Part shown: piece after piece, positions 12,049-46,732 of the stretch
Position numbering within the stretch: position 1 is the stretch's first letter
How the letters are laid out: every line of letters starts with the position of its first letter
Source: an uncultured Bacteroidia bacterium
GTDB lineage: Bacteria > Bacteroidota > Bacteroidia > J057 > CALAJH01
Direction of reading: 5' to 3'
DNA length: 46,732 nt
Assembly (NCBI GenBank): GCA_937922655.1
Contig: CALAJH010000003.1
Coordinates: 1 to 46,732 of the forward strand
Program-made: the position numbers and the translations under genes
The notes under the pieces: generated by a model
Told to the model about the DNA's origin: nothing
Database searches by the model: none
The model's input: the letters and a program-made list of their open reading frames with translations, nothing else

Positions 12049-13008
12049 TTATCGTTCGCATATGGAATCGACCGTCAAATAACGGGCAACTTCTTCCGGC
12101 GTTATGCCGTATATTTTGGCGATGAATTCGTCCGACAAGCCTTCATTTTTCATGCGCAAAATAGCCATGCGACGCTCTTCTTGCCGACCTTTTTCGATGC
12201 CTTTTTCGATGCCTTTTTCGATGCCTTTTTCGATGCCCTCCTCCCTGCCTTTTCTCACTCCCTCCCACTCGCGCGTGAGTAGCTTCTGTTCAAGATTGGC
12301 GGCAATGACGTCCTGAACTATGGGAATTTGGAGCCAATGGTCCAATAAATTTACGTTCGATATCGTATCCATAATTTTTTGTATGAGCCAAAAAGCAAAT
12401 TCCGGTTGAATAAAACGACGCTCGCGTGCGCGATCGGTCGCGGTCAATAGCAAGACTAGGTCGGCGTCGGCAAACTTATGTACGTTTTCCGTGAACTTTT
12501 GTTGCAAATCTTCGTCCGATATTCCCTGCCTTCCGAAAAACAAGCTCAAAATCAAATCATGGGGTTCGCTCAAGTCCGACAGCTCCAACGCGGGTATCTG
12601 CGCCAAGTTGAACGCCGAAAAATACACCACGGCGCACACCACCCCCAATCCGTTGGTCAGCTCCCCCCCCGAAGCATACTTCTCGGCCCCGCCGTCGATA
12701 AACAGTACGATTTGCACGGGAAACGAGCCGTACTTTTGGTACAATGCCGCTTGGTATTCAAGCATTCGGCGCGAAATTTCGGGCCTGTCCGCCAACCATA
12801 CCTCAATGTGTACCACCACCGTTCGCCCATCGGTCAGCGTAACGAGAAAAACAAAGTCGCAGTATCTTCGTGCAACGACCATCGTCAGTTCGGTGTTCTC
12901 GAGTTGTACCGACGAAACGCGCACATTCAGAACATAAGCGATAAGCCTCGGCGCCCAATGCGGCAAAGTTGTTTTTATGACCAAATCGTAAGGCGAATGT
13001 ATTTCCAT
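12049..13008 (-). CDS. Rpn-like (PD-(D/E)XK) nuclease family protein with C-terminal 4-residue repeats
   Basis: This 319-residue protein resembles the recombination-promoting nuclease (Rpn)/transposase-like PD-(D/E)XK family. The core reads RRYCDFVFLV, then TVVVHIEVW, then RRMLEYQAALYQKY; the usual ExQ is EVW here. The C-terminus (about 250-319) has four copies of GIEK, then a helix and a short HTH-like tail (GLSDEFIAKIYGITPEEV). Known Rpn genes act as antiphage toxins, and their variable C-terminal domain is also translated separately as an antitoxin. An in-frame ATG at 12372 (M213) would give such a 107-residue protein, and a GTG at 12258 a 69-residue one. The gene follows the TPR protein by 50 bases. 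Nuclease activity is inferred, not shown. Confidence 0.75.
   Translation of the reverse strand: MEIHSPYDLVIKTTLPHWAPRLIAYVLNVRVSSVQLENTELTMVVARRYCDFVFLVTLTDGRTVVVHIEVWLADRPEISRRMLEYQAALYQKYGSFPVQIVLFIDGGAEKYASGGELTNGLGVVCAVVYFSAFNLAQIPALELSDLSEPHDLILSLFFGRQGISDEDLQQKFTENVHKFADADLVLLLTATDRARERRFIQPEFAFWLIQKIMDTISNVNLLDHWLQIPIVQDVIAANLEQKLLTREWEGVRKGREEGIEKGIEKGIEKGIEKGRQEERRMAILRMKNEGLSDEFIAKIYGITPEEVARYLTVDSICER
12188..12235 (-). repeat. 12-bp tandem repeat, four identical copies, inside the Rpn-like gene
   Basis: On the coding strand the unit is GGCATCGAAAAA, repeated four times without a mismatch and encoding (GIEK)x4. The unit length is a multiple of three, so slippage changes copy number without breaking the frame. 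Confidence 0.95.
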
Positions 13009-13020
13009 GGTCGGCGGGGG

Positions 13021-13052
13021 TTTTCCGGCCCCGTATTTCAGAGGCCGGAAAA
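13021..13052. other. Perfect 10-bp inverted repeat between TPR and Rpn-like genes
   Basis: The arms TTTTCCGGCC (13021-13030) and GGCCGGAAAA (13043-13052) flank a 12-base loop. It sits in the 50-base gap between the TPR stop and the Rpn-like ATG. On the minus strand it is followed by CCCCCG rather than a T-run. It may be a partial terminator or a translation-control hairpin for the Rpn-like gene. Confidence 0.55.
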
Positions 13053-13058
13053 AACGGT

Positions 13059-20830: not shown

Positions 20831-21748
20831 ATGAGCGCGTTGGAGTCTCAGATATACGATTCGACGGCCAAAGTGTGCGTGGCCGTACTCGCCCAATGGT
20901 TCTACGACCGGGTTCCAACGGGCGTTGCCGCCGTTGTCGGACGCGAGTTGAGTCAGGAACTCATCCATATTTTCGGCAAACACCGTCGTTTGTGCGACCT
21001 GCTTTTGGAGCTCACGGGCGTGAAATTGAACGGCCAAGCCGTGGAAGCCGTCGCCCTCTATGACATTCAGGCCCGCGCGCGCGGCGACGAAATCCATCGC
21101 AACGCCGGTTACGCGGGACGCATATTGGAAAACGAACGTTTTTGGCGGGTGGAATTTTTCGTCCAACTGCTTTTTTTGCTTACCGAAACACCGGAACGTT
21201 TTCGCACCCGCATTCACGGTTTTCCCAACGTTTTTCAACTCTTCGTCATCGACCTAACGAAGGTGGACGGTTTGGAGTTGTTGAAGGAAGGGATACCCGA
21301 GGCGGCGGTATTGGCGACGTTGAGCGCCGTCGTGCCACGCAACCTTTTGATAGCCGGCATCGTAGAAATCCTGACGGCGCTGCCAACGTTGCAAGCGTGG
21401 TCGGCATGGACGGAAAAAGTTTTCGCCTTTGCCAAATTGAGAAAGGATTATCGAATTTTTACCATGGAACTGTTGCAAGAAATCAAACGCACAACGCCCG
21501 ACGACCAACGTCAAGCCGAGCTTCGCTTCATCTATGGCGCCTTTATCGAAGAAGGCTATGACATGGGCATCAAAGACGGCGTCAAAAAAGGTATCAAAAA
21601 AGGTATCAAAAAAGGTATCGAAAAAGGCGAAGATATCGGACGACAAAAGGAACGTAGCGAACTCGCCCAAAAAATGAGGGAAAAAGGCTACGACCCCGCC
21701 GAAATATCCGCCCTGACCGGCATCCCCAAAGAGCAAATCCCGGAATAA
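20831..21748 (+). CDS. Rpn-like family protein with C-terminal 4-residue repeats (second copy)
   Basis: The 305-residue protein has the same overall plan as the one at 12049-13008. A degenerate PD-(D/E)XK-like core (CDLLLEL near residue 57, then ALYDIQARARGD in place of the ExQ motif) is followed by helical domains. The C-terminal module carries KKGI repeats (about 250-265) and a short HTH-like tail (GYDPAEISALTGIPKEQI). The start is ATG 20831; a TTG at 20825 is possible. An in-frame ATG at 21464 (M212) lies almost at the same residue position as in the first copy and would give a 94-residue C-terminal protein, as for RpnS antitoxins. Because the motif is weak, catalytic activity is uncertain. 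Confidence 0.65.
   Translation: MSALESQIYDSTAKVCVAVLAQWFYDRVPTGVAAVVGRELSQELIHIFGKHRRLCDLLLELTGVKLNGQAVEAVALYDIQARARGDEIHRNAGYAGRILENERFWRVEFFVQLLFLLTETPERFRTRIHGFPNVFQLFVIDLTKVDGLELLKEGIPEAAVLATLSAVVPRNLLIAGIVEILTALPTLQAWSAWTEKVFAFAKLRKDYRIFTMELLQEIKRTTPDDQRQAELRFIYGAFIEEGYDMGIKDGVKKGIKKGIKKGIEKGEDIGRQKERSELAQKMREKGYDPAEISALTGIPKEQIPE
21578..21625 (+). repeat. 12-bp tandem repeat, four near-identical copies, inside the second Rpn-like gene
   Basis: The units read GGCGTCAAAAAA, GGTATCAAAAAA twice, and GGTATCGAAAAA, encoding G(V/I)(K/E)K. The Gly and Ile codons differ from the first Rpn-like gene only in part, so the arrays look related in kind but expanded independently. Confidence 0.92.
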
Positions 21749-46365: not shown

Positions 46366-46722
46366 TTACGAATCCACGCCGTTAAGTTCGGTTCCATTTT
46401 TACGCGTTAGAATGGCGTTCACTTTGTCGGCGGGAATGTCCAGTAGAAAGGCAATTTGTTCCGGAGTCACGCCTTTGGAGTGCATGGAAAGCACGTTGTT
46501 TTCGATACCTTTTTCGATACCTTTTTTGAGGCCTTTTTCAAGGCCTTTTTCGAGGCCTTCTTTTCTGCCTTCGATTCTGCCCTCTTTTTTTCCCTCTTTT
46601 CTGCCCTCGCGTCGGGCTTTGCGTTTGACGTTCGAAAGCAGGGCGTATTCGATGGCCTCAAAATGTTCTTCGGTCAGGACGCGACCGACCTCTTTAAATT
46701 CGATTCTCGTTTTCATATCCAT
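46366..46722 (-). CDS. C-terminal part of an Rpn-like protein, or a stand-alone RpnS-like protein
   Basis: An ATG at 46722 gives 118 residues, but the frame stays open to the window edge, so this may be the end of a longer Rpn-like gene. It has a helical start (MDMKTRIEFKEVG), then about ten 4-residue units (RREG, RKEG, KKEG, RIEG, then LEKG, LKKG, IEKG), and an HTH-like tail (MHSKGVTPEQIAFLLDI). The layout matches the C-terminal modules of the proteins at 12049 and 20831. The Met sits at the position where those two have internal Met codons. It converges on nothing; the next gene on the same strand is the T9SS type B substrate, 106 bases away. Confidence 0.6.
   Translation of the reverse strand: MDMKTRIEFKEVGRVLTEEHFEAIEYALLSNVKRKARREGRKEGKKEGRIEGRKEGLEKGLEKGLKKGIEKGIENNVLSMHSKGVTPEQIAFLLDIPADKVNAILTRKNGTELNGVDS
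46498..46557 (-). repeat. 12-bp tandem repeat array (five near-identical copies, decaying to about 46605)
   Basis: On the coding strand the units are GGCCTCGAAAAA, GGCCTTGAAAAA, GGCCTCAAAAAA, GGTATCGAAAAA and GGTATCGAAAAC. More degenerate GR(K/I)E and GKKE units lie upstream to about 46605. Confidence 0.9.
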
Positions 46723-46732
46723 AACAAACTGT

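Follow-up and report, generated by a model that had tools for sequence, protein, structure and literature searches.

A probable gene-within-gene RpnL/RpnS toxin-antitoxin unit with a predicted non-Shine-Dalgarno internal start in an uncultured Bacteroidia bacterium

In Escherichia coli, RpnA, RpnB, RpnC, and RpnP2 have been described as RpnLS toxin-antitoxin systems (Zhong et al. 2023, PMC10327210), and the intragenic antitoxin was previously known from E. coli and from one Clostridioides gene (Zhong et al., PMC10327210). A preliminary description of the DNA analyzed here had pointed to the internal antitoxin of the E. coli Rpn proteins as its published basis, and this matches the study of Zhong et al. 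2023 (PMC10327210). The window, meaning the whole 46,732-nucleotide stretch of DNA that was analyzed, is one whole contig (C3) of a genome assembled into 84 contigs and 3.58 Mb, the genes of which point to Bacteroidota. It carries an RpnL-like full-length Rpn-family gene on the minus strand (12049..13008), a frame of 319 amino acids with an ATG start that was assigned from the open reading frame, the TIGR01784 match, and an alignment of paralogs. We put the probability at roughly 70% that this gene is an RpnL/RpnS gene-within-gene toxin-antitoxin unit with a longer RpnS that is initiated without a Shine-Dalgarno sequence. Its family membership, its repeats, the selected internal start, and the stand-alone tail genes of the same genome are all established by computation.

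Family membership and the nuclease core

The window protein scores 53.2 bits against TIGR01784, the NCBIfam model of the Rpn family, a narrow margin over the cut-off of 52.1, and its best-scoring stretch is the repeat and tail portion (residues 240-309). This bears out the preliminary call of an Rpn-like gene at 12049-13008. That call had come with a proposed HMM search against PF04754 and related Rpn families, of which the related family TIGR01784 gave a match while PF04754 (Transposase_31) reached 14.2 bits, below its 21-bit gathering score. No Rpn copy of the genome reaches the PF04754 gathering score, indicating that the Rpn branch found here is divergent. Close orthologs of the window protein were not found in GTDB genome contigs or in IMG/VR, its closest relatives within its class being weak matches, and a PDB sequence search yielded no informative match. 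In the profile of its sub-branch, conservation was too low along every stretch to support a further scan. PADLOC returned only a weak "putative invertase" match on the repeat helix, and the immediate neighbors are non-defense genes encoding a TPR protein, a POT transporter, and ZapA. An inverted repeat (CCGGCC/GGCCGG, 13014-13056), noticed by eye in the interval that separates the Rpn start from the TPR gene upstream of it, might act as a terminator or might hide the first start codon.

Two profile searches placed 57 and 54 Rpn-like places in the genome, from which 25 full-length Rpn frames were assembled, plus many contig-end fragments. More than 20 contig ends lie in or beside Rpn-like genes (e.g. 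C1, C2, C17, C26, C36, and C43, and further C49, C59, C66, C67, C77, and C83), so that the assembly was probably interrupted by recent, near-identical copies and more copies probably exist than were counted. Two further members reside in the window itself. One is a full-length paralog with a D-I-Q motif on the plus strand (20831..21748), and the other is a third Rpn-like gene on the minus strand (46366..46731) that the contig end truncates to its C-terminal part, in which long degenerate 12-bp repeats occur.

Alignment of the 25 paralogs locates the PD-(D/E)XK core residues of the window gene at 12766..12987 on the minus strand, as equivalents of residues characterized in RpnA (Kingston 2017, PMC5350276). 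These are D8 (12985-12987; RpnA D11), D51 (12856-12858; RpnA D63), E69 (12802-12804; RpnA E82), and R81 (12766-12768; RpnA R94), with W71 (12796-12798) at the position usually occupied by glutamine, RpnA Q84 (all minus strand; PMC5350276). When the window protein was aligned with the six paralogs of its sub-branch, D8, K12, and D51 were invariant. The preliminary reading of EVW in place of the usual ExQ is confirmed by the alignment, in which E69-V70-W71 pairs with the ExQ of the paralogs. The residue at the catalytic glutamine position is Q in 18 of the 25 paralogs, F in three, E in two, Y in one, and W in one, the last being the window gene alone. Aromatic residues at this position occur in three separate clusters (F in C69, C1c, and C62b; Y in C2; W71 in the window gene), and an aromatic residue here is possibly a functional variant of the Rpn active site. 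As the RpnA Q84A mutant is still toxic and SOS-inducing while Q84K has lost both properties (Kingston 2017, PMC5350276), activity with W71 is not predictable, and the Q-to-W change could lower nuclease activity. A full-length AF2 model computed from a two-sequence input had a low confidence of 54 and was kept out of the judgement of the active site.

The repeat helix, the tail, and the internal start codon

The tetrad-repeat helix (12187..12270, minus strand), delimited with Tandem Repeats Finder and a tetrad parse, consists of seven tetrads that all end in glycine: EWEG, VRKG, REEG, and four copies of IEKG. Tandem Repeats Finder reports a 12-bp unit at 12188-12237 (4.2 copies, 100% matches, score 100), and the protein form of these perfect repeats, lying inside the seven tetrads, is GIEKGIEKGIEKGIEK. 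The C-terminal tail (12052..12186, minus strand) was assigned two short HTH-like helices from an AF2 model of 12049-12372 and fold comparison. Single-sequence AF2 prediction of the 107-amino-acid product encoded there gave a mean pLDDT of 84.6 and mainly one long helix with two short helices. A fold search with this model returned only HTH-type matches, to DNA-binding HTH domains with modest Z scores of at most 6.5, and 7TH0 (RpnAS) was absent among the matches listed; an HTH_23 match in the window protein was sub-threshold (E 0.12). Both structural features named in the preliminary description are thus recovered, the GIEK x4 repeat as four perfect 12-bp units and the HTH-like tail as a sub-threshold HTH_23 match plus predicted helices aligning to HTH domains at Z of at most 6.5.

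A start-context profile for this genome was built from 317 long unannotated open reading frames in 527 kb of sequence, set against 1496 internal in-frame ATGs, and reached a held-out AUC of 0.88-0.93; a second version, whose training data excluded the Rpn genes and the window, had 1332 internal ATGs of non-Rpn genes as reference. Starts in this genome are rich in A/T; A is favored at -13 to -10 and at -3, and G is depleted at -12 to -6. This profile agrees with the initiation determinants reported for Bacteroidetes, which are A at -3, -6, and -12/-13 together with low structure (Baez 2019, PMC6847099). Shine-Dalgarno-like 4-mers precede 4.5% of unambiguous starts versus 8.1% of internal ATGs, and this lack of enrichment at starts indicates that the genome does not use Shine-Dalgarno initiation.

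Within the window gene, the codon of M213 (12372-12370) lies 37 residues ahead of the repeats, in a predicted internal translation initiation region (12361..12397, minus strand; tttgctttttggctcatacaaaaaatt-ATG-gatacg) recognized by the start model and by folding energy. The region is A-rich, has A at -3 and -6, and is weakly folded, with a dG around M213 of -6.9 versus a gene mean of -11.5 kcal/mol. M213 has a context score of 10.0 (99.9th percentile), compared with -4.4 for the annotated first ATG, and in the model whose training excluded the Rpn genes and the window, none of the 1332 non-Rpn internal ATGs ranks as high. Its synonymous-codon z is 2.38 (p about 0.01). Reading from M213 to the stop codon gives a predicted RpnS-like internal product of 107 amino acids (12049..12372, minus strand), a prediction resting on start context, synonymous z, and the AF2 model. 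The ATG at 12372 had been named beforehand as a candidate start, and with start-context, synonymous-codon, folding, and stand-alone-copy evidence from 25 paralogs, the internal start at 12370-12372 is now well supported by computation.

The same arrangement recurs across the family. An in-frame ATG is located 20-50 residues ahead of the repeats in all 25 paralogs, versus 44% expected from methionine frequency, and the predicted internal products range from 74 to 131 amino acids. The internal methionine occupies a common zone among the 25 paralogs, but not always one alignment column. Compared with other Rpn ATGs, the 36 ATGs in this zone have a median context percentile of 97 versus 52 (P = 5.6e-13), in a test that takes in all 36 and hence involves no choice of candidate. 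Synonymous-codon resampling was conducted so that codon choice could be judged apart from constraint on the amino acids, with one candidate chosen where a gene had two nearby ATGs. The internal ATGs had a mean z of 1.86 and a Stouffer z of 9.3 over 25 paralogs of shared ancestry, while controls had mean z values of 0.01 (121 other Rpn ATGs) and -0.27 (1496 genome ATGs). With the paralogs grouped into 12 clusters at 40% identity, the signal was positive in all 12, with a combined z of 7.4. In addition, each of the 25 genes has weaker RNA structure around its internal ATG than it has on average along its length (mean z 1.67). In the second window paralog, the internal ATG (21464-21466, plus strand) is at percentile 99.7 with a z of 2.07 and opens a predicted 94-amino-acid product that includes 12-bp IKKG repeats (21569-21628, plus strand; Tandem Repeats Finder). 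By these computations, the predicted internal start is under selection at the nucleotide level across these paralogs.

The synonymous signal takes the form of an A/T-rich peak about 18 codons wide (about -10 to +8) with its maximum at the ATG, and because the peak is broad, part of it could stem from an internal promoter or from a junction that is AT-rich in general. In G004, a relative from the same order, the signal is weak (Stouffer 2.1), and the relatives of the C51/C73a type found there have leucine at the corresponding place (LRNL versus LRNM). Several other relatives examined have no methionine in the zone ahead of the repeats, which means that Rpn-like genes do not all share the feature. 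A different Rpn-like branch in G013, G015, G002, and G046 (loci L138, L045, L032, L033, and L035) has GIEKG-type tails and no methionine near the tail.

Repeat number and stand-alone tail genes

A comparison of repeat number among relatives had been proposed in the preliminary description, and among the paralogs of this one genome the number does vary between near-identical copies. Near-identical paralogs carry 14 (C1c), 13 (C62b), and at least 17 (C77) tetrads, with the upstream DNA of C1c and C62b being 96.5% identical, and a second near-identical set carries 6 (C71), 10 (C66), and 9 (C59).

Separate tail copies follow Rpn genes, either full-length or cut by a contig end, at five loci, from which it appears that tails are kept as genes of their own in this genome. 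C17b starts with MVKQN 3 nt past the upstream stop codon and C73b with MIAGLL 20 nt past it, in both cases at a methionine homologous to the internal one; C36b has two adjacent candidate methionines, both homologous to internal methionines, and C26b and C1b have ATGA stop-start overlaps with the upstream gene. An apparent sixth tandem-tail case (C83) is cut by a contig end. The stand-alone tails are 89-108 amino acids long, a range that includes the 107 amino acids of the predicted window product. In all five, the repeat count is unlike that of the neighboring upstream gene (3/6 for C73a and C73b, then 9/7, at least 7/6, 7/8, and 7/5; the stand-alone tails are, in no matching order, loci L077, L078, L079, L080, and L057), a mismatch for which no earlier report was found in the literature searched. 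As one added repeat abolishes neutralization in E. coli RpnC (PMC10327210), these stand-alone tails may not silence their neighbors. Tentatively, and with the odds against it in our estimation, the Rpn genes of this genome might form a network in which stand-alone tails neutralize other or former repeat-length variants as a kind of antidote bank. If this were true, arrays could change length without self-poisoning, and the bank could also act as a guard against incoming alleles.

Proposed mechanism, alternatives, and relation to known systems

Under the favored reading, the full-length 319-amino-acid protein would be a PD-(D/E)XK nuclease bearing tetrad repeats on its C-terminal helix, and a second ribosome start at the ATG at 12370-12372 would yield the 107-amino-acid protein, comprising only the repeat helix and the HTH-like tail. 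The identical repeat helix would let the small protein bind its full-length counterpart and hold the nuclease inactive for as long as the complex is not disturbed by phage infection or stress, and the weak first ATG next to the strong internal one may provide the antitoxin in excess. Nuclease toxicity, neutralization through the repeat helix, and phage defense are carried over here by analogy with E. coli and are to be read as predictions.

Several other explanations were weighed against this one. It is very improbable that initiation takes place instead at GTG 12258 or TTG 12345, producing a shorter, E. coli-like RpnS. The TTG (L222) does have a context at the 92nd percentile, and the GTG (V251; 12256..12258, minus strand), which had been put forward earlier on account of the preceding GGGAGGGA, has a score of -4.0 that places it at the 71st percentile of internal ATGs, versus the 99.9th for M213. 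The GGGAGGGA directly abuts the GTG with zero spacer, and since Shine-Dalgarno-like 4-mers are rarer at the starts of this genome than at internal ATGs, the candidate is not plausible and was rejected. We also regard it as improbable that there is no internal product and that the methionine and its A/T-rich codons are kept at a domain boundary for protein or DNA reasons, such as helix packing, a junction for tail-swapping recombination, or an internal promoter. The breadth of the A/T-rich peak and the weak G004 signal fit such an account, but the G004 relatives with leucine and the several sub-families without the methionine argue against a structural need for this residue, the signal resides in the choice among synonymous codons and not in amino acids, and the stand-alone tails begin at or beside the homologous methionine.

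A further explanation accepts the internal start and supposes that W71 has left the toxin dead or weakened, so that the gene would now chiefly produce the tail protein, which would counteract other Rpn copies of the genome as antitoxin or decoy. D8, D51, E69, and R81 are nevertheless all present, the frame of the window gene is fully open, four paralogs of other clusters are aromatic at the same position (F, F, F, and Y), and the RpnA Q84A precedent (PMC5350276) shows that loss of the glutamine can leave toxicity intact. We therefore consider a dead or weakened toxin unlikely, even though the tryptophan is confined to this one paralog, the first ATG has a poor context where the internal one has the best, and tails alone are kept elsewhere in the genome.

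Relative to what was known before, the new element is that a single genome, from a lineage without Shine-Dalgarno usage, contains about 25 divergent paralogs, all with a selected internal start as computed here. These findings suggest an ancient and general gene-within-gene layout, one that a start-context test can detect with sequence as its only input. The near-identical copies, which differ chiefly in repeat number, together with stand-alone tails of other counts, constitute natural sets in which the idea that repeat length sets specificity is directly testable.

In comparison with the TIGR01784 family (recombination-promoting nuclease/putative transposase, COG5464), the window protein scores above the curated cut-off and keeps the D, D, E, and R residues, whereas the match is strongest in the repeat and tail stretch and PF04754 stays below its cut-off. 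The C. difficile Rpn with a verified RpnS (PMC10327210) is likewise non-enterobacterial with an internally initiated tail, a tail that is predicted in our case; mutations made in E. coli verified its ribosome-binding site and its start, while the start described here is computational and has no such ribosome-binding site. Unlike the E. coli RpnLS systems, initiation here would rely on an A-rich, unstructured context and not on a Shine-Dalgarno sequence, the window gene carries tryptophan where RpnA has Q84, the 3.6-Mb genome contains about 25 full-length copies, and five of five tandem stand-alone tails differ from their neighbor in repeat number. The predicted small protein of 107 amino acids (74-131 across paralogs) compares with 5.4 kDa for E. 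coli RpnAS, and the distance from start to repeats is 37 residues (22-49 across paralogs) versus 8-20 in E. coli. The three-helix fold of RpnAS (PDB 7TH0) can be set beside the tail model, which is mainly one long helix with two short ones. What is shared with E. coli RpnLS is the PD-(D/E)XK core (here its D, D, E, and R residues), the C-terminal tetrad-repeat helix with a helical tail, an in-frame start ahead of the repeats (on computational evidence here), hypervariable repeat number (seen here among the paralogs of one genome), and, as with E. coli rpnES and rpnCS (PMC10327210), additional stand-alone tail genes.
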